Shown piece after piece: positions 7,744 to 60,212 of a stretch of 64,000 nt of DNA. The notes beneath the pieces are model-generated. The model searched no databases and was not told where the DNA came from. It saw only the letters and a list, made by a program, of their open reading frames with translations. Positions within the stretch are counted from its first letter, which is position 1. Each line of letters opens with the position of its first letter. The position numbers and the translations under genes are program-made. The DNA is from Streptomyces sp. 11x1 (lineage in GTDB: Bacteria > Actinomycetota > Actinomycetes > Streptomycetales > Streptomycetaceae), in assembly GCF_032598905.1 (NCBI RefSeq), contig NZ_CP122458.1, forward strand, positions 6,597,001 to 6,661,000, read 5' to 3'.

Positions 7744-8853
7744 TCACACATGACAGCTTCTACGCGTCAGGTCGTGGAACTCCTGCTCGCGCATCTTGGT
7801 GATCTCGCTGCAGACGGCACTGTCCAGGAACTGGTCCAAGGGCAGACACAGGTCCATGCGCTGAATGCAGACTCCTACGTGGAAGGTCCCTTTGGCGTCT
7901 CGGTAGAGGCGGACCCCGTAGTAGCCCTCCTGGCAGTCGGTCGGGTTGTTGAAGCGACAACTCGCGCACGTCTCCGGCAGACGTACCTGACGAATGTGCT
8001 TGGCCTTGATCAACCTCCCGTCGGGCAGCCGGTACGAGACGCGGAACCCTGATGCTCCGGCGATGAGATGGATTTCCTGCGGCACGGCTCGGAGGTCGAC
8101 GAGTAGCTGGTTGATGGCGTCCAAGGACACGACGCCGTCCGCAAGCGAGGACAGGACCCGTAACGAGACATGTGGGGTGTATCGATCGAGAAGACGGTGT
8201 ACGCGCTCGACGTGACTGTGGTCGGGCACCACCACATTGGCACGCACATCGATTCCTTCGTCAGCCGCCACCTTGATCGACTGCTCCAGGGCTTCGATCT
8301 TGCGTCTCGCCAGGGAGGCCGACTTGTACCGCACGTTCTGCACCTGCGCCAGTTCCTCCGGTGTGGTGCCGAAGACCGAGAAGTTGATCCGGTCCAACCC
8401 GGCCTGCGCGCAGCCAGGAAGAATCCTGGCGCCGTTCTCGCCGTTGGAGGTGACCCCCACGCTGTACCCCTCCTCCCTGGCCAGGGCCACGATCGCGGGG
8501 AGCTTGGGATGCAGCGTCGGTTCGCCCCCTGTCAGATGAACCTCCTCGAACCCCAAGGCGTCACGGAGCTCCCGCAACGCAGTGCGGAACGTCTCGTCAG
8601 GGAAGACGGGCGCTGCCGTGAAGCGTGCTCCATTGGTCGCGAGGTAGATGGAGACACGTTCGGAACGGCCGACGGCACCGAACTCGCCGGCGACCTGAGC
8701 ATGGTTGTCGGCGGCCACCGGCGTGCCCTCGTTGTGGCAGAACGTACAGGTCATCCCGCAGGCGTCGATGACCTTCACCCGCAGAGTGCGGTCCATGGTG
8801 ACCCTGACGGGGACGTGGTCTCTGATGCCGGTCAGGGCGCGATGCTCGAACAC
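7744..8853 (-). CDS. Radical SAM enzyme, MoaA-like with C-terminal cysteine cluster
   Basis: I chose GTG 8853 as the start (369 residues) because GAAGGAG sits 9 bases upstream and the residues before it are low-quality. The CxxxCxxC motif (CGMTCTFC) binds the 4Fe-4S cluster that cleaves S-adenosylmethionine. LTGGEPTLHPKL is the GGEP motif, and VTSNGENG the next strand. The C-terminal part has CASCRF..., then DCQEGYYG, and GVCIQRMDLC, which suggests an auxiliary Fe-S cluster (SPASM/Twitch-like). The substrate is unknown. It is followed directly by the CYTH gene. It is not linked to molybdopterin or peptide-maturation genes here. Confidence 0.75.
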   Translation of the reverse strand: MFEHRALTGIRDHVPVRVTMDRTLRVKVIDACGMTCTFCHNEGTPVAADNHAQVAGEFGAVGRSERVSIYLATNGARFTAAPVFPDETFRTALRELRDALGFEEVHLTGGEPTLHPKLPAIVALAREEGYSVGVTSNGENGARILPGCAQAGLDRINFSVFGTTPEELAQVQNVRYKSASLARRKIEALEQSIKVAADEGIDVRANVVVPDHSHVERVHRLLDRYTPHVSLRVLSSLADGVVSLDAINQLLVDLRAVPQEIHLIAGASGFRVSYRLPDGRLIKAKHIRQVRLPETCASCRFNNPTDCQEGYYGVRLYRDAKGTFHVGVCIQRMDLCLPLDQFLDSAVCSEITKMREQEFHDLTRRSCHV

Positions 8854-11326: not shown

Positions 11327-12172
11327 TCAAAGCTCCTTACGGATCCGATGGATCAGGGAGGAGGAAGCCTCCATGTCCAACGCTTGTGCCCGGAGGTACT
11401 CGAACGCAAGTCGGTAACGCTCCAGTTCCTCCTCCTTCTCCAGGAAGAGGGACCCGGTGTGGAAGTCCACGTACACGACGTCGAGGGCCGGCTCCCTGCC
11501 TCCGAAAGTTACGAAGCTTCCGAGAGCGGCCGCATGTGCTCCCTTGGAGAATGGCAGCACCTGGAGGGTGATGTGAGGAGACTCGTTCGCTTCAAGCAGC
11601 CGACTGAGCTGCTGTTTCATCGTTTCCGGTGAGCCAACGACCCGGCGGATCACTGACTCGTCGAGGATGGCCCAGAGGCGAGGCGGCTTCGGGCGTCTGA
11701 GGATCTCCTGCCGCTTCATGCGGATGTCGACGAGCCGCTCGATCTCCTCCGGCTCCAGAGGCACTTCGTTAGCCTTCTGAAGTGCTGTGTTGTAGGCACG
11801 CGTTTGCAAGAGACCGGGGACGTACACGCAGGAGAAGTGATTCTCATGAACTGCCTCGTCCTCAAGGGTGAGGAGAAGGTTCATGCTCTCCGGGATGGAG
11901 TCAGCGAAGGAGCTCCACCAGCCCTGCTGCTTGGCGTCCTTGGCGAGATTCACGACGGCCTTTCGCTCGTCCTCTGCGGCCTCGTACTCGCGGCACAACG
12001 CCTCAACCACGATCCACCGGACCGGACCTGCTTGAGTCTCGTACCGGCTGACCGTGGCTTTGGACACACCCACCAGTCGCCCTGCCTCCTCAAGGGTTAG
12101 CCCCTTCCTGGCTCGCAACTTCCTCAACATCGCGCCCAGTTGGCGGCGGCGGGTCGTGGTCCGGACGGACAT
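11327..12172 (-). CDS. XRE-family HTH regulator with DUF5753 domain (WhiJ-like)
   Basis: A 281-residue protein. The HTH is at about 10-60 (QLGAMLRKLRARKGLTLEEAGRLVGVSKATVSRYE). The DUF5753 domain follows, with VYVPGLLQTRAYN, an RMKRQEIL helix, LWAILDESVIRRVVG and ITLQVLPFSKGAHAA. The C-terminal helix is LAFEYLRAQALD. The gene is directly followed by DUF397 and is divergent from the HATPase gene at 12388. This three-gene arrangement resembles the abaA/whiJ-type regulatory loci of Streptomyces. Confidence 0.9.
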   Translation of the reverse strand: MSVRTTTRRRQLGAMLRKLRARKGLTLEEAGRLVGVSKATVSRYETQAGPVRWIVVEALCREYEAAEDERKAVVNLAKDAKQQGWWSSFADSIPESMNLLLTLEDEAVHENHFSCVYVPGLLQTRAYNTALQKANEVPLEPEEIERLVDIRMKRQEILRRPKPPRLWAILDESVIRRVVGSPETMKQQLSRLLEANESPHITLQVLPFSKGAHAAALGSFVTFGGREPALDVVYVDFHTGSLFLEKEEELERYRLAFEYLRAQALDMEASSSLIHRIRKEL

Positions 12173-12300: not shown

Positions 12301-12387
12301 GCCATGCTTCTCGCAGACCGCTACGCAGTGCAGCCGTCTGAGTACGGCTGGTGCAGCGCCTGTGTGGCCTGAGAGGGAGGAGTGGCC

Positions 12388-13020
12388 GTGCCCGGCTACG
12401 AAGTCACCGAACCTCAGCTTCGATGCGTGCTGCCCTTTGAGGCGGCGCCGACGGAGGTATCTCTGCTCCGTAAGGCAGCTACCGCGCAGCTCAAGCGGTG
12501 GGGTATGGAAGGAAATGTCGAGGAAGTGGCGCTGTTGGTCACGGAGTTGGCGACGAATGTTCTCAAACACGTCGGGGACGGTGCGTCGGCGACCTTGATC
12601 CTTGAGACGAGGAGTGAGCGGCTCCGCCTAGAGGTTCACGACAAGAGCCGTGTGGTCCCGTCCCCCAGAGGCTTGGACTGCGCAGCGGAGTGTGGTCGTG
12701 GCCTTCACCTGTTGGCGGCCCTTGCTCTGGACTGGGGTACGGAACACACGGCCGGGGGCAAGGCAGTATGGTGCGAGGTTCTTCTTGACCCCGCTCATTA
12801 CTGTCGCCGTATCGCGCGAGCCGTCGCCGCGTTGTCGGGCTATCGGCGAGTACGCGGGCGAGCGATCACGCCGGGTGGCCGGAAGTCGGCCGGACTTGAG
12901 GAGTCAGCCGTCGAGCTGATCGCAGACCTCCTCCACTGGACCACGTCCCTAGGCTGTGATCCGGACGACGTCCTTGATCTCGCTCAGACGTGCTACGAAG
13001 CCGAAGCGGACGCTGCCTAG
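12388..13020 (+). CDS. HATPase_c ATP-binding protein (RsbW/anti-sigma-like)
   Basis: About 210 residues. GTG 12388 is preferred over GTG 12382 because GGGAGGAG is then at normal spacing. The GHKL ATP-binding fold is visible: EEVALLVTELATNVLKH (N box), LRLEVHDKS (G1, D-x-S type) and CGRGLHLLAALALDWG (G2). The C-terminal part (about 145-210) carries the LIADLLHWTTSLGCDPDDVLDLAQ block common in this Streptomyces subfamily. These proteins are related to serine-kinase anti-sigma factors. It is divergent from XRE-DUF397 and convergent with the HNH gene, with a 4-base overlap of 3' ends. Confidence 0.85.
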   Translation: MPGYEVTEPQLRCVLPFEAAPTEVSLLRKAATAQLKRWGMEGNVEEVALLVTELATNVLKHVGDGASATLILETRSERLRLEVHDKSRVVPSPRGLDCAAECGRGLHLLAALALDWGTEHTAGGKAVWCEVLLDPAHYCRRIARAVAALSGYRRVRGRAITPGGRKSAGLEESAVELIADLLHWTTSLGCDPDDVLDLAQTCYEAEADAA

Positions 13021-13766
13021 TGGGTCCCGAGCTGTGCGGCCTTCCGTATCTCGTCCCGGAGGTCGTCGGGAGTGCGCCAGGATTCTCCTGGTCGGCTCGT
13101 GTGGCACATGCGGTGGCAGTTGGCGCACAGGCAAGCAAGGTCGTCGAGTCTTGTTTTCCGGGTGCCCGAAATGTAGAGGGGGGTGACGTGATGCACTTCG
13201 ATGAAGCCCTCGCCAATACTGCCGTAGATACGGGCGAAGTCGAAGAGGCAGACCTCGCACCGCAACGGCTCGCCGCTGTTGAGGACCTGCTGGATCTTCA
13301 GTTTGCGCAGCTTCCGATCCCGTTCGCGGACGAGTGCCCGGCGGACCAACAGCCGTCCCTCGATGGCGGTCAACCCGTCGTCGTCAACCTCATCGGGCTG
13401 CTGTGGGAGAAGCTGAAGTTCGCCCGAGCCCATGCTTTCCACGATGGCCTCGGCCGCCTGGAGCATCTCAGCTTCACGCTCAGTGAACGCCTTGATCATC
13501 CGAAGGGTACCCTCGCCGCCCTTGGTGCCCTTGCCGGAATAAGACTGGTAGTTCGTGGCGAAGTCGCTGGTCTTGCGGCTGACGCTGTCCGGCGACCGGA
13601 ATTCGGGCAGCGCGCGTGCTTCTGGACTGTGCAGCGGCAGCGAGCGGAGCAGCTCGGACAGCTCATGCACCTTCTGGTCGCCAGTCCGCAGCTCACGCCA
13701 GCCGTTCTTCACGACGAGCGCGCCGGCCAGTACAAGTTCATCCTCAGTCCACGCAGGGCTTCGCAT
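13017..13766 (-). CDS. HNH endonuclease
   Basis: A 249-residue protein. The C-terminal third contains a zinc-stabilised HNH domain: LRCEVCLFDF, then FIEVHHVTPLYISG (the HH core) and LACLCANCHRMCH (CxxC and the final His). The N-terminal region (about 1-100) has a WTEDELVLAGALVV start and an RSPDSVSRKTSDFATNYQS segment, which is common in HNH restriction-type enzymes and may read DNA or regulate cleavage. It is divergent from the methyltransferase gene with a 161-base gap. It could be a methylation-dependent (McrA-like) or a conventional nuclease; the sequence does not decide. Confidence 0.8.
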   Translation of the reverse strand: MRSPAWTEDELVLAGALVVKNGWRELRTGDQKVHELSELLRSLPLHSPEARALPEFRSPDSVSRKTSDFATNYQSYSGKGTKGGEGTLRMIKAFTEREAEMLQAAEAIVESMGSGELQLLPQQPDEVDDDGLTAIEGRLLVRRALVRERDRKLRKLKIQQVLNSGEPLRCEVCLFDFARIYGSIGEGFIEVHHVTPLYISGTRKTRLDDLACLCANCHRMCHTSRPGESWRTPDDLRDEIRKAAQLGTH

Positions 13767-13927
13767 GAAGAATATCGTATGAGTGTTCGCTGCGGCGGAG
13801 GGTGCGTTAAGCGATCAGTCGGCCGTGCTGCACACTGGGGCAGGTCGCGTTGTCAGTGGGGTCTGTCACCCTCAGTGATGGTGGATTGCAAGATGTGTCT
13901 GCCGCTGTACGGCTGCAAGGAGGGGGC

Positions 13928-15151
13928 ATGACCCACGTGAATGGACCCGAGCGCTCTGCGGAGGAGATCGAGGAGCCCGAGTTCACCTCGATCGAGATCT
14001 GTGCAGGAGCAGGGGGGCAGGCTATCGGGCTGCACCAGGCCGGGTTTGGCCACCTAGCCTTGGTAGAGATCGACGCGTACGCGGCTGCGACGCTGAAGGC
14101 GAACGTTGAGTCTCATCCTGGGTGGGTTTGGGAGAGAGAGAACTGTGACGTTCTGCCGCCGACGGACGTCAATGACTTCGAGCGGGACAAGCATCTCAAG
14201 AAGAGCAAGGAACTGTTCCAGCGCCGAGGGCTCGATCTCTTGGCCGGCGGCGTCCCTTGCCCGCCCTTCTCGCATGCTGGTAAGCAGCTTGGCAAGGATG
14301 ACGAGCGCGACTTGTTCCCGAAGATGTTGGACCTCGTCGAGAAGCTCAATCCACGGGCTGTGATGATCGAGAATGTGCGCGGGATCAAGGACCCAAAGTT
14401 CGAAGACTACCGTGGCTGGATCGAAGCGAAGCTCCAGGGCGGATGGTACCGGGGCGACGACGGTCAGATGGTCTGGGAAGAGGGTCTTGGCTACAAGGTG
14501 TGTGAGTGGGACGTCTTGGAGGCCAGCGACTTCGGAGTTCCGCAGCTTCGCCCTCGTGCCATCCTCGTTGCATTCCGCAGCGACGTCCTGAAAGACGTTA
14601 AGTATGAGTGGCCCGCCGCCACTCACGACGAACACGTCAGCGTTGCCAAGGCACTTGAAGAATCCATGAAAGCCCGGTATCAGCCGTACTTCAAGGGTGC
14701 GGATGCCGACCGAGCCCGCAAGGCGTACGAGCGCTGGCTTGATACAGCTCGGCTGCGTCACGAAGCGCTTCGCGAAAAGGGTGGCGGTATCGCGCCCACG
14801 TTGGTCGGTGGCTCGAAGAAGCACGGAGGAGCCGATCTTGGCCCAAGCCGTGCGAAGGCAGCGTGGAAGCAACTCGGCGTCAGTGGCCTGGGCGTTGCTA
14901 ACGATCCGGAGACGTGCAAGAAAAAGAAAAGTGAGGATCGGGACCTTTTCGGTCCGGACGGGCCAATGCTCACTGTGCAGCAGGCTGCAATCATCCAAGG
15001 CTTCCCGCCAGAGTGGCAGTTCGCGGGCGGCAAGACTGCACAGTACCGGCAGGTGGGCAACGCTTTCCCGCCCCCGGTCGCCAAGGTGGTAGGTCAATCG
15101 ATTGCAGATGTCTTGAGGGCAGCGCGTGAGCGGGACAGCAAGAAGGGCTGA
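13928..15151 (+). CDS. C5-cytosine-specific DNA methyltransferase
   Basis: The start is ATG 13928, with AGGAGGGGG directly upstream (407 residues). All key C5-MTase motifs are visible: ICAGAGGQAIGL (motif I, SAM), GGVPCPPFSHAG (motif IV, catalytic Cys), MIENVRG (motif VI), QLRPRAILVAF (motif VIII) and YRQVGNAFPPPVAKVV (motif X). The target-recognition region lies around 220-340, just before the GPMLTVQQAAIIQGFP stretch. Because a Vsr and a NaeI-family endonuclease follow, it most likely protects GCCGGC or a related site; the specificity is inferred. It ends 4 bases before the convergent vsr gene. Confidence 0.9.
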   Translation: MTHVNGPERSAEEIEEPEFTSIEICAGAGGQAIGLHQAGFGHLALVEIDAYAAATLKANVESHPGWVWERENCDVLPPTDVNDFERDKHLKKSKELFQRRGLDLLAGGVPCPPFSHAGKQLGKDDERDLFPKMLDLVEKLNPRAVMIENVRGIKDPKFEDYRGWIEAKLQGGWYRGDDGQMVWEEGLGYKVCEWDVLEASDFGVPQLRPRAILVAFRSDVLKDVKYEWPAATHDEHVSVAKALEESMKARYQPYFKGADADRARKAYERWLDTARLRHEALREKGGGIAPTLVGGSKKHGGADLGPSRAKAAWKQLGVSGLGVANDPETCKKKKSEDRDLFGPDGPMLTVQQAAIIQGFPPEWQFAGGKTAQYRQVGNAFPPPVAKVVGQSIADVLRAARERDSKKG

Positions 15152-15155
15152 TCTA

Positions 15156-15626
15156 CTACCCGCTCTTCTTGCCCCGGCGTGCTTCAGCGCGACGCATTGC
15201 TACTTCTGCCGCGATCTGCGCCGCACACTCTGAAGACGATTCGTGCTCCCAGAACCGGAGCACCGTCCAGCCGGCCTCCATTAGCCGCTGGTCGGTGTCC
15301 CGGTCTCTGGCCATGTTCCGGGCAACCTTGTCTGACCAGTAGCCCTGGTTGGTTTTCGGCGGGACGTAGTGTTCTGGACAGCCATGCCAGTAGCAACCGT
15401 CAATGAACACGGCAACCTTCGTCGGACGGAAGACCATGTCTGCCGTCCGACGAAGCTTGGGTAGCGGTCGGGCCGCTACCCGGTAGCGGAGGCCTTGCGC
15501 GTGGATAAGCTGCCGGATCAGTCGTTCAGGCGTGGTATCCCGGCTGCGGATGGCCTGCATATTGCGGCGGCGAGCAGCGGACGATGCCCAGGAGCCGCTG
15601 GGTGGCTCCCACGGGTCTTCGGACAT
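15156..15626 (-). CDS. vsr: Very short patch repair endonuclease (Vsr)
   Basis: A 156-residue protein from ATG 15626 (MSEDPWEPP). The typical Vsr features are all present: RRRNMQAIRSRDTTPERLIRQ at the N-terminus, the TADMVFRPTKVAVFIDGCYWHGCPEH core with catalytic Asp and zinc ligands, and TVLRFWEHES near the end. Vsr nicks DNA at T:G mismatches created by deamination of 5-methylcytosine and so accompanies C5 methyltransferases. It is the last gene of the minus-strand run NaeI-like, NgoMIV-like, vsr and is convergent with the methyltransferase. Confidence 0.95.
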   Translation of the reverse strand: MSEDPWEPPSGSWASSAARRRNMQAIRSRDTTPERLIRQLIHAQGLRYRVAARPLPKLRRTADMVFRPTKVAVFIDGCYWHGCPEHYVPPKTNQGYWSDKVARNMARDRDTDQRLMEAGWTVLRFWEHESSSECAAQIAAEVAMRRAEARRGKKSG

Positions 15627-15646
15627 CTGAAGTTCTCCCGTCTCGG

Positions 15647-16621
15647 CTACAGGATGTCGCCGCTGTTCCTGAGATCTTTGACCAGGACATCTAGTCCGTT
15701 GAGTGCGAGCGTTTGAGCCCGGTTGATGCCTTCTTGCTTCAGGGCAGCCAAGTCCGGCCAGCGTGCCAGTGCCGAAGCGTCGGCGGCAAGCTCGTTCACT
15801 GCCATCCACGATCCAACCCAACCAGGGCAGATGTGATAGGTGCGATCTTCAATGCTCTCGCGCGCAACGCCTGCTGCCCGGGGGAACTCGGCTGTTGCCA
15901 TCGCATAAGGCACGTCAGGTCTGTAGCGGGTGAGCGGCACCATCTGAGCGGCCTCAGTACCGCGGTCGGAGCGCCACGTCCACTTGGACGACAGGGCAGC
16001 GACTAGGCGGCCACCTTCGTCGATGATCAGGATGTCGCTTTTGCGGTCGCCTACATCACGACGCATATGAAGCCCTCGGATATGGGTGAGAGGAACCTCA
16101 TGCCGCACCTGCCAACCGGTCGGCAGGCTTTTGCTAAGAAAGTGAATCAACAGGTCCCGGAAGCGAGCCCCGCGCAGGTTCCTGTCCAGCTTGCATGGTC
16201 TCTCGATGCTTACATTCCGGCTGGTCACGACATGCGTCCATAGTGAAAGAACTGCGATTTCTCCGCCGATTCGCCGCCGCTTACTGTGGCCGGTAGCTGT
16301 GTCTTTTACCTTGTCATCTAGCCGATGAGTTCGCACGGGGGGATCCCAATGCATCTGTCCTTGAGTGTGACTTTCTTCCTCAAGTGCGGTCCCTGCCGAG
16401 TCATAGGCAGTAAACCCGGCTTCTGTTAGCCAAGCTGGATTCCAGCCCAGTTTGTGACGCAGGCTGGCATCTGATAGCGATTCATTTGGATGTAGATCCA
16501 GTCGTGCTTCGCTGGCGAGAATGGATTCATTCCAGCATAGTCCGAGAAAAATCGCACTAATTGCTTCCGGGTCCTCTAGATAACTTTCAATCAGGGCTTT
16601 GTGAGTGGGTTCGAGAGGCAT
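15647..16621 (-). CDS. Putative type II restriction endonuclease, NgoMIV/SgrAI-like
   Basis: 324 residues from ATG 16621; an upstream ATG at 16753 would overlap the NaeI-like gene by 83 bases. The diagnostic stretch is SSKWTWRSDR (residues 211-220), which resembles the catalytic Lys plus base-reading RSDR of NgoMIV-type enzymes (family known to cut GCCGGC-like sites). Downstream YAMATAEFPR and DRTYHICPGW also recall that family. However, the nearest acidic residue before Lys213 is Asp196, only 17 residues away, unlike the roughly 46-residue spacing of NgoMIV, and the downstream catalytic Glu position is uncertain. The call is moderate. GC content is clearly lower than in surrounding genes. 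Confidence 0.55.
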   Translation of the reverse strand: MPLEPTHKALIESYLEDPEAISAIFLGLCWNESILASEARLDLHPNESLSDASLRHKLGWNPAWLTEAGFTAYDSAGTALEEESHTQGQMHWDPPVRTHRLDDKVKDTATGHSKRRRIGGEIAVLSLWTHVVTSRNVSIERPCKLDRNLRGARFRDLLIHFLSKSLPTGWQVRHEVPLTHIRGLHMRRDVGDRKSDILIIDEGGRLVAALSSKWTWRSDRGTEAAQMVPLTRYRPDVPYAMATAEFPRAAGVARESIEDRTYHICPGWVGSWMAVNELAADASALARWPDLAALKQEGINRAQTLALNGLDVLVKDLRNSGDIL

Positions 16622-16670
16622 GGAATGCTTTCCGGGCAGGTGACTATCAAATCGCCTTGGCGTTGGCTTG

Positions 16671-17783
16671 CTAAGGACGAGCTGTGGTTGCCGGTAGGTT
16701 TGGGGCCATTTCGGCAGGGTCGTAATCATTGGCGACTGCCCAGTGTCGGCCATCCAGGTACACGTAGGGCTTCACATTCTGACCTGCTTGCACCGAGGCC
16801 ACGCGTACACTCACGAACTCGCCCTCGCGGGGAGGGGTGAGTCCAAGTTGCTCTGCCACAGCTCGGTGGCTGTCGTAGTCGCCCATAATGATTATGCCTT
16901 CAGGTCTGAGTGCTGAGCGAGAACCTCCGTTACCGCGAACGCGCTTCATGTAGTCTTTTTGTTGTGCGACTGTGCGCACGACGTTGCGGCCTATTCCCCT
17001 TCCCTGCACCCGTCGGAACAACTCGTTGAGTCGTTGCTGCCCGGACTTCTGTGCAAAGACGGCAGCACGGTCAGCTGGGTGCATATGGAGAAGAACGTTT
17101 TCCGGGAGGTCGAAGTCTCGCCATAGCCAGAGAATCTTGTTGCGGTGTTCGGCTTTCACGGTGAGCTTTGCATCGCGATTTCTGCCCAGGTTTAGCCATT
17201 CTTCTCTTACCCGGAACAGGCCAGCGCTCCATCTGCTCTGGTAGTCGTCAGCCCAGACAAGGAGGCAAAGGTGTCCTATCGCCTCCGGTGGGATCATCCA
17301 GCCGCTGAACTTTTGAGAATACTTGCAGTCCACTTCGATGCCGCTGATTCTGTAATCCATGGCCTGGCCATCGGCGAACCTGAACTCGCGTTGCAGGTTG
17401 ATCTCGACCAAGGTGCCGGCATGGGTTCTCTCGGTCTTGTTCAGATTTGCCCAATCGTAGCGACCTGTGATCTCGCCGTTCAGCAACTGATCAATGGTGT
17501 CCCGGAGCACGCTGGCAAATCGTTCGCCAAAGGGATCCATATCCAGCAACTCCGCATGCACCGCGAGGAGCTCAGTGTCACGCTTCAGCTCCTCGGTTAC
17601 GACGAGGTTCTGTGCAGCATGGATATCGTCGAATGGCAGCAAGCAATCCCCCTGGGTGAACTGAGCTGAATCGCGGCGCTGTTGGGCAAGCCGCTCTGGC
17701 TTGTTGATGAGAGGCGAGCCTCTCAGACTCAGACGATCAGTCTGACCGTACTGCAAAGGTAGGACACCGAGGTGCCCCTCCAA
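16671..17783 (-). CDS. NaeI-family type IIE restriction endonuclease
   Basis: Alignment from memory to NaeI is strong through the whole length: RDTIDQLLNGEITGR, KTERTHAGTLVEINLQREF, VDCKYSQ, PPEAIGHLCLLVWA, NELFRRVQGRGIGR and VAQQKDYMKRVRG. Counting from TTG 17783, the catalytic set falls at Glu127, Asp143, Asp152 and Lys154, with the same spacing as NaeI Glu70/Asp86/Asp95/Lys97. The equivalent of NaeI Leu43 is Leu100, so the wild-type nuclease, not the topoisomerase-like, residue is kept. NaeI cuts GCC^GGC after binding a second effector site. The N-terminus is about 57 residues longer than NaeI; the true start is unresolved. AT-richer than the flanks. Confidence 0.9.
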   Translation of the reverse strand: MEGHLGVLPLQYGQTDRLSLRGSPLINKPERLAQQRRDSAQFTQGDCLLPFDDIHAAQNLVVTEELKRDTELLAVHAELLDMDPFGERFASVLRDTIDQLLNGEITGRYDWANLNKTERTHAGTLVEINLQREFRFADGQAMDYRISGIEVDCKYSQKFSGWMIPPEAIGHLCLLVWADDYQSRWSAGLFRVREEWLNLGRNRDAKLTVKAEHRNKILWLWRDFDLPENVLLHMHPADRAAVFAQKSGQQRLNELFRRVQGRGIGRNVVRTVAQQKDYMKRVRGNGGSRSALRPEGIIIMGDYDSHRAVAEQLGLTPPREGEFVSVRVASVQAGQNVKPYVYLDGRHWAVANDYDPAEMAPNLPATTARP

Positions 17784-36943: not shown

Positions 36944-37422
36944 GAGTCATCCCCCCCGCACACACGTCGAGTGTGTGTTCGTCGGTCTTTCGTCCGAATC
37001 GGTCCCCCTCGACCGTTACGGACGCATCAGTGGGTTATCGTCACCATGTGATCTACACCATGGAGACACGGGACGAAGACCATCCGGTTGCATTGATGCC
37101 CCCTCGGCATCTTTTGTGCCTGAGCGCGTACGGTGCGCACCTCGTCGAGGGCCCCAGATCCCCATCCCAGGGCGCAAAGCGCCCAAGGCTCCCCAACCGC
37201 CATGTATCCGCAGTCTCTTACGGCCCAGGGTTCTATGGTGTTCATCTTGATCGCAAGGTGCGAAACACGGCGTTTACCGGTCATACGCGGACATGGGTGC
37301 ATTGATGGAGAATCTGTAGGGAGTGGGAGGGGAGTGCGAGGGGGGCGAGGGGAGCGCCCGGGGTGATGCGCACATGCGGAGAGGCCCCTCGCGATTCACT
37401 CGCGAGGGGCCTCTCCGGTCTG
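36944..37422. other. Intergenic region upstream of cslA
   Basis: A 480-base region with a lower GC level than its neighbours. No supported gene; a plus-strand frame from ATG 37060 is rejected for poor codon bias. It holds the promoter of cslA (minus strand) and the terminator of tRNA-Lys-1 (37381-37413). Confidence 0.5.
37381..37413 (-). terminator. Terminator of tRNA-Lys-1
   Basis: GAGGCCCCTCGCGA and TCGCGAGGGGCCTC form a perfect 14-base stem with a 5-base loop, 10 bases after the tRNA 3' end. Confidence 0.85.
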
Positions 37423-37496
37423 TGCGCCGCCAGGGACTCGAACCCCGGACCCGCTGATTAAGAGTCAGCTGCTCTAACCAACTGAGCTAGCGGCGC
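37423..37496 (-). tRNA. tRNA-Lys (anticodon CTT), copy 1
   Basis: The minus strand folds as a standard cloverleaf: acceptor GCGCCGC pairs with GCGGCGC, discriminator A, D-arm with AGTTGGTTAG, anticodon arm GCTGA-CTCTTAA-TCAGC with CTT, and T-arm with GTTCGAGTCC. CCA is not encoded. Two identical genes occur at 45666 and 60139. Confidence 0.97.
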
Positions 37497-45660: not shown

Positions 45661-45665
45661 TTCTG

Positions 45666-45739
45666 TGCGCCGCCAGGGACTCGAACCCCGGACCCGCTGA
45701 TTAAGAGTCAGCTGCTCTAACCAACTGAGCTAGCGGCGC
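45666..45739 (-). tRNA. tRNA-Lys (anticodon CTT), copy 2
   Basis: Identical over 74 bases to the tRNA genes at 37423 and 60139. Acceptor GCGCCGC/GCGGCGC, anticodon CTT. CCA not encoded. Its terminator hairpin is at 45629-45660. Confidence 0.97.
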
Positions 45740-60130: not shown

Positions 60131-60138
60131 CCGTGTCG

Positions 60139-60212
60139 TGCGCCGCCAGGGACTCGAACCCCGGACCCGCTGATTAAGAGTCAGCTGCTCTAACCAACTG
60201 AGCTAGCGGCGC
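60139..60212 (-). tRNA. tRNA-Lys (anticodon CTT), copy 3
   Basis: Identical to the copies at 37423 and 45666. Its 5' end (GCGCCGCTAG) contains the stop codon of the upstream protein gene, so the two genes overlap by 10 bases on the same strand and the tRNA may be cut from that mRNA. Confidence 0.97.

Follow-up and report, generated by a model that had tools for sequence, protein, structure and literature searches.

What does a restriction-modification (RM) locus encode when a second nuclease stands beside the first, given that the usual picture of a type II system pairs a single nuclease with a single methylase? The question is raised by a 64,000-nucleotide stretch of the 10.67 Mb genome of Streptomyces sp. 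11x1 (contig 1, NZ_CP122458.1, positions 6597001-6661000; hereafter the window), in which a single C5-cytosine methyltransferase (MTase) gene lies beside the genes for a NaeI homologue and for a further predicted nuclease, here called P4. The answer favoured here, with good confidence, is a NaeI-type GCCGGC type II RM locus whose one MTase covers both NaeI and an exchangeable second nuclease for the same site. The genes concerned, and the segments on which the argument turns, are as follows.

13928..15151, plus strand (frame open from 13850): C5-cytosine MTase, PF00145 3e-52
14789..14896, plus strand: type A target-recognition core of the MTase, IAPTLVGGSKKHGGADLGP..., with 28 of 36 residues common with the MTase beside NgoMIV
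15156..15626, minus strand: Vsr very-short-patch mismatch endonuclease, PF03852 1.7e-19, TIGR00632 1.8e-39, PDB 1cw0 4.7e-19
15647..16621, minus strand: P4, a 324-residue predicted CCGG-family restriction endonuclease from a family without a library model
15953..15991, minus strand: P4 residues S211-E223, SSKWTWRSDRGTE, predicted catalytic S-x-K and E, plus CCGG-recognition R-S-D-R
16034..16036, minus strand: codon of P4 D196, predicted metal-binding Asp, invariant in a 100-sequence alignment
16671..17783, minus strand: NaeI-family type II restriction endonuclease, PF09126 6.5e-123, 410 bits (cut-off 25 bits)

An earlier note on this DNA had described an intact five-gene cluster at 13017..17783, comprising an HNH nuclease, a complete C5 MTase, Vsr, an NgoMIV-like protein and a NaeI-family enzyme. 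All five open reading frames are indeed unbroken at these coordinates, and Pfam matches identify four of their products as HNH, C5 MTase, Vsr and NaeI. The NaeI, P4 and vsr genes are codirectional, with gaps of 49 and 20 bases, and run head-on into the convergent MTase gene, which in turn forms a divergent pair with the HNH gene. The nearest named relatives of the window's proteins are from Streptomyces.

The MTase gives the clue to the site. Both C5 MTase catalytic motifs, PCPP and ENV, are present in its translation, as the completeness claimed for it would have it, and translation more likely begins at ATG 13928 than at 13850, as the Pfam match starts only with residue 45 of the frame from 13850. 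In Neisseria gonorrhoeae (locus L163), where the nuclease frame matches NgoMIV chain 1fiu when compared by eye, the MTase adjoining NgoMIV has the recognition core IAPTLVGGSKKHGGADLGP, and it is 43% identical to the window MTase over 380 aligned columns. NgoMIV cleaves G|CCGGC, according to a portion of PMC6344858. Because the target-recognition core is thus common to the two enzymes, the window MTase probably protects GCCGGC, to judge from sequence. Further, among 80 loci the recognition cores fell into type A (62) and a dissimilar type B (7, by a pattern that includes an extra, looser alternative written for locus L168), with both in none and neither in 11. Type A accompanies NaeI alone, NaeI with NgoMIV, NaeI with P4, and NgoMIV where the stretch has no NaeI; type B accompanies NaeI alone (L065), NaeI with NgoMIV (L070, L153), NgoMIV without NaeI on plasmids of Mycobacterium paragordonae (L164) and Rhodococcus antarcticus (L165), and P4 without NaeI on one metagenome contig (L033), this last being a single observation, as L033 and L034 are one sequence. 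That two dissimilar cores each accompany NaeI, NgoMIV and P4 is best accounted for if the three share a site, or if the site of P4 contains GCCGGC. Because GCCGGC-linked MTase types keep company with all three, P4 most likely cuts GCCGGC too. The earlier proposal of two isospecific nucleases under one MTase thereby gains ground, in that NaeI and the NgoMIV-fold P4 share a C5 MTase for which the evidence points to GCCGGC, and a changed specificity of the second nuclease, which had been offered as the alternative, is disfavoured by the same evidence. The locus matched by the looser type B pattern lies on a Sphingomonas plasmid (L168, 3911-6405), where a type B-like MTase is found with Vsr and with an HNH protein unrelated to that of the window, no NaeI or NgoMIV being annotated near it; this HNH protein is possibly an enzyme for GCCGGC.

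What kind of protein, then, is P4? Its start is placed at ATG 16621, in agreement with the earlier note and with its relatives (mostly about 324 residues); a longer frame from 16753 overlaps NaeI. No match to it was found in Pfam, NCBIfam, PADLOC (long frame) or PHROGs, and a renewed search with the 324-residue form likewise gave none; a single-sequence search of the PDB gave no match, Foldseek alone gave no significant one, and searches of plasmids, phages and viral contigs found no P4. Its resemblance to NgoMIV is visible only by profile (E 0.04) and by fold comparison. The earlier note had allowed that structure comparison might show the 15647-16621 product not to be a nuclease; the structure model has a PD-(D/E)XK nuclease fold of the NgoMIV/Cfr10I type. 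In it the permuted active-site pattern Asp ... Ser-x-Lys ... Glu is represented by D196, S211, K213 and E223, and the R-(D/E)R motif at a helix N-terminus by R217-S-D219-R220, with the model helix at 220-233. D196 aside, S211, K213, R217, S218, D219, R220 and E223 are likewise invariant in the 100-sequence alignment, which reaches down to 38% identity. The active site departs from the pattern in having Glu at K+10 rather than K+14 and Asp without a preceding Pro, and helix 147-165 of the model, at the place of NgoMIV E70, holds no invariant acid, E121 on the preceding helix being invariant. PfoI likewise shifts its E70-equivalent acidic residue, as described in part of PMC6344858. Against the NgoMIV family PF09015 (cut-off 23.2 bits) the window P4 gave no match, and 15 of 29 relatives matched at E 1 or better, the best at E 0.0069. 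P4 as a plain member of the NgoMIV family was dropped for failing that cut-off; it forms a family of its own, which comprises some 130 sequence clusters and is covered by no library model. The label NgoMIV-like stands for fold and profile and falls for membership. One relative (P0102, from Mycolicibacterium) is already labelled 'PDDEXK family nuclease' and 'Restriction endonuclease' by its sources.

The first nuclease is more easily placed. The NaeI homologue matches NaeI itself (PDB 1ev7) at E 1.9e-91 over residues 68-368; its start is unsure, with the frame reaching TTG at 17783 and the domain occupying residues 74-357. In the 1ev7 alignment it retains E70, D86, D95 and K97, taken here to be the catalytic residues of NaeI, together with Leu43, whose role is likewise presumed (positions counted by hand). 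A topoisomerase-like variant of NaeI was considered for this protein and dropped, Leu43 being kept. NaeI cleaves GCC|GGC, leaving blunt ends; a passage of PMC4081073 prints the site as GCC|CCG, which is read here as a misprint. NaeI domains also occur with neither a type A nor a type B methylase close by (L127, L137, L140, L145, L155 and L066), mostly in longer frames of up to 1117 residues; these may be fused effectors of the kind described in PMC7159879.

Is the pairing peculiar to this strain? The earlier note had thought it an unusual redundancy, and as a one-off this does not hold: an arrangement of this kind is found repeatedly in Streptomyces, and at seven loci true NgoMIV takes the place of P4 between NaeI and vsr, as a split copy in one of them. 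Among 295 Streptomyces genomes NaeI was found in 45 and NgoMIV in 10, with NaeI present, in the same cluster, in 8 of the 10 NgoMIV genomes against 37 of the 285 others (Fisher p 5.9e-6, without kinship correction). P4 was found in 4/392 Streptomyces genomes, that of the window included, and NaeI is next door in all four; the other seven P4-profile matches in these genomes are weak matches to NgoMIV proteins. Within about 8 kb of the 45 NaeI genes lie an MTase (36), the window's HNH family (22), both an XRE-type regulator and an ATPase (17), NgoMIV (8) and P4 (3), counts in which some stretches end at contig ends and one of the 45 was not recovered by the query used here. Where a Streptomyces NaeI locus has the MTase, 25 of 36 showed no second nuclease by the queries used. 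Class-wide, NaeI was found in 26 of 394 genomes, and a second nuclease nearby in five of these (P4 in G000 and G344; NgoMIV in G291, G206 and G365). A phylum sample of 396 genomes held no P4 besides the window's own. A scan of genome contigs yielded seven P4 loci, two identical; NaeI is adjacent in four of the six distinct ones and absent in L033, and the contig of the sixth (L035) starts inside P4.

The slot can be followed by measuring how far the Vsr motif lies from the NaeI stop, over 39 rows with a same-strand Vsr that carries the motif (L048, L049, L052, L133, L134, L150 and L154, for example, fall outside this set). Rows that lack a second nuclease gave 47-118 bases in 20 of 23 cases, NgoMIV rows 845-903 bases in 7 of 9, and P4 rows (from four genomes) 1092-1101 bases in all seven. 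The exceptions are L057, L064 and L054, with another gene order, L073, with NgoMIV elsewhere in the cluster, and L144 (8865-10891), where the slot is filled by a protein named by eye as PIN-domain-like and a 213-residue partner, which shows that it can accept cargo other than a second nuclease. In Streptomyces the slot is thus usually empty, or else holds NgoMIV, P4 or, once, this PIN-like pair. On a tree of 39 MTases (39 of 63 rows kept, E up to 1e-100) the NgoMIV label changes seven times and is not clustered (221/500 shuffles as low), and the P4 label changes four times (15/500 as low). The MTase nearest to that of the window, 84% identical to it, belongs to an NgoMIV locus, L077, whose NgoMIV (7856-8622) is split into two overlapping frames by decay or sequencing error. 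Taken together, slot content, distances, tree and this MTase kinship imply that second nucleases are gained and lost beside methylases that remain similar. Other layouts were seen as well: in four actinobacterial genomes (L057, L058, L059, L060) NaeI and a type A MTase have between them an HNH protein of a different family, another HNH protein lies beside NaeI on Rhodococcus opacus plasmid pROB02, and in two NaeI plus NgoMIV loci (L072, L136) about 5 kb separates Vsr from the MTase, a second insertion point in the module.

How the parts might work together can be proposed in outline. The C5 MTase would mark the host's GCCGGC sites, and Vsr would repair T:G mismatches arising at 5-methylcytosine. 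NaeI and the unrelated P4, the latter encoded in the exchangeable slot that separates NaeI from vsr, would both cut unmarked GCCGGC, NaeI bluntly and P4, by expectation, before the first C (G|CCGGC) to leave a 5' overhang, so that the two may serve together against incoming DNA.

Other arrangements have to be weighed against this one, the most serious being that P4 is an active CCGG-family nuclease for another site, longer or with other outer bases, protected through overlap with the site of this MTase or by another MTase of the genome. The recognition of outer bases varies within the CCGG family, as set out in part of PMC6344858; P4 is distant from NgoMIV, given the failed single-sequence PDB search and the profile E of 0.04; and a longer site containing GCCGGC would still be protected. 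Such a shift of site is nonetheless unlikely, because P4 accompanies either type of GCCGGC-linked MTase, in one case (L033) with no NaeI, and uses a slot that true NgoMIV also uses. That P4 retains the nuclease fold as a partner or decayed copy without cutting of its own, NaeI doing all the restriction, might be thought from the 25 of 36 Streptomyces MTase loci that make do without a second nuclease and from the split NgoMIV copy of L077. Invariance of the predicted catalytic residues across the 100 aligned sequences argues against it, as does L033, where P4, MTase and Vsr occur without NaeI or any other type II nuclease by the queries used, and the chance of an inert P4 accordingly appears small.

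The roles could also be reversed, with P4 the true nuclease and the NaeI homologue a topoisomerase-like or signalling effector. The full NaeI family match (PF09126, 1ev7), the retention of the four presumed catalytic residues with leucine 43, and the position of NaeI as the sole type II nuclease found by the queries in those 25 of 36 loci leave this highly improbable. What speaks for it is the link between NaeI and topoisomerases and the use of NaeI-like domains as effectors in other conflict systems, described in parts of PMC4081073 and PMC7159879. The NaeI-type GCCGGC locus with an exchangeable isospecific nuclease remains the preferred explanation.

Set beside known systems, the locus shares with NaeI (type IIE, GCC|GGC) a NaeI-family nuclease, here next to a C5 MTase and Vsr, and stands apart in having an extra unrelated nuclease gene between NaeI and vsr, with HNH, ATPase and XRE genes attached. 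Unlike NgoMIV (type IIF, G|CCGGC), P4 is under the Pfam cut-off, is 36-75 residues longer than seven aligned NgoMIV homologues, has its last Glu at K+10 and lacks an invariant acid at the E70 place. In contrast to AgeI, BsaWI, SgrAI, PspGI, PfoI, Bse634I and Cfr10I of the CCGG family, P4 sits in a two-nuclease locus, and the searches found no characterised member of its own family. Literature searches over titles and the beginnings of abstracts likewise found no paper on a double-nuclease locus of NaeI with NgoMIV or a P4-like protein; a REBASE entry may exist.

Three further genes complete the picture.

11327..12172, minus strand: XRE-type regulator with DUF5753, PF19054 9.8e-54, PF13560 1.1e-16
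12382..13020, plus strand: RsbW-like histidine-kinase-type ATPase, PF13581 1.6e-10
13017..13766, minus strand: HNH nuclease with a McrA-like C-terminal half, PF01844 1.3e-6, PDB 6ghc 1.1e-5 (residues 169-226)

The HNH protein had been counted towards up to three nucleases. Its family is indeed enriched at NaeI loci (the 22 of 45 above), and it could be a third restriction enzyme of this system. Its HNH half resembles EcoKMcrA-type nucleases through 6ghc, a 5-methylcytosine-specific restriction enzyme A. Library and PDB matches are confined to that half; unlike in EcoKMcrA-type enzymes, the N-terminal half matched no known modification-sensing domain, and the AlphaFold2 model is poor (predicted local distance difference test score, pLDDT, 56.6). 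The family, of 1259 clusters, was found in 8 of 29 Streptomyces genomes, namely 5 of 6 with NaeI and 3 of 23 without (G002, G010, G023); the HNH genes of these three showed no neighbouring MTase or NaeI by the queries used, and at one of them (L179) a Vsr-like frame lies beside HNH. A homologue at L181 (7857-8912), from a genome that yielded no NaeI, is extended at its N-terminus. The HNH protein, then, often accompanies NaeI yet also occurs without it; it is probably an accessory nuclease, to go by its position, and perhaps a type IV-like one. The XRE and ATPase genes, absent from the earlier note, are recurrent flanks of the module and hold the same position in relatives; by that position they are probably regulators, the XRE gene being a possible regulator of the module itself.

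The lower G+C content (GC) that had been read as a sign of acquisition is real: the cluster has 0.56-0.63 per kb, and the DNA immediately beyond the low stretch 0.69-0.73. It fits acquisition without proving it, because the low stretch, from about 7 to 18 kb of the window (0.56-0.67 per kb), is broader than the cluster and other dips exist, for example 0.64 at 34-35 kb. Elsewhere in the window three tRNA-Lys(CTT) genes lie on the minus strand within a span of at most 23 kb (37422-37496, 45665-45739 and 60138-60212).

Beyond the strain itself, the locus presents a recurring two-cutter layout in which structurally unrelated nucleases attend one inferred site, and in which one cutter is swapped between families while the methylase stays. 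With P4 the CCGG enzymes gain a family that no library model covers; they are a model group for the reading of related sites by related folds. More tentatively, P4 and the slot-borne NgoMIV could be methylase-less restriction genes that spread into resident GCCGGC RM loci and are tolerated only through the protection of the resident MTase, and a single-nuclease system turned in this way into one that cuts both blunt and staggered might kill more surely when the MTase is lost and be harder for phages to evade. The layout thus invites the question of what makes a cell retain two nucleases, and whether a restriction gene can travel without a methylase of its own.

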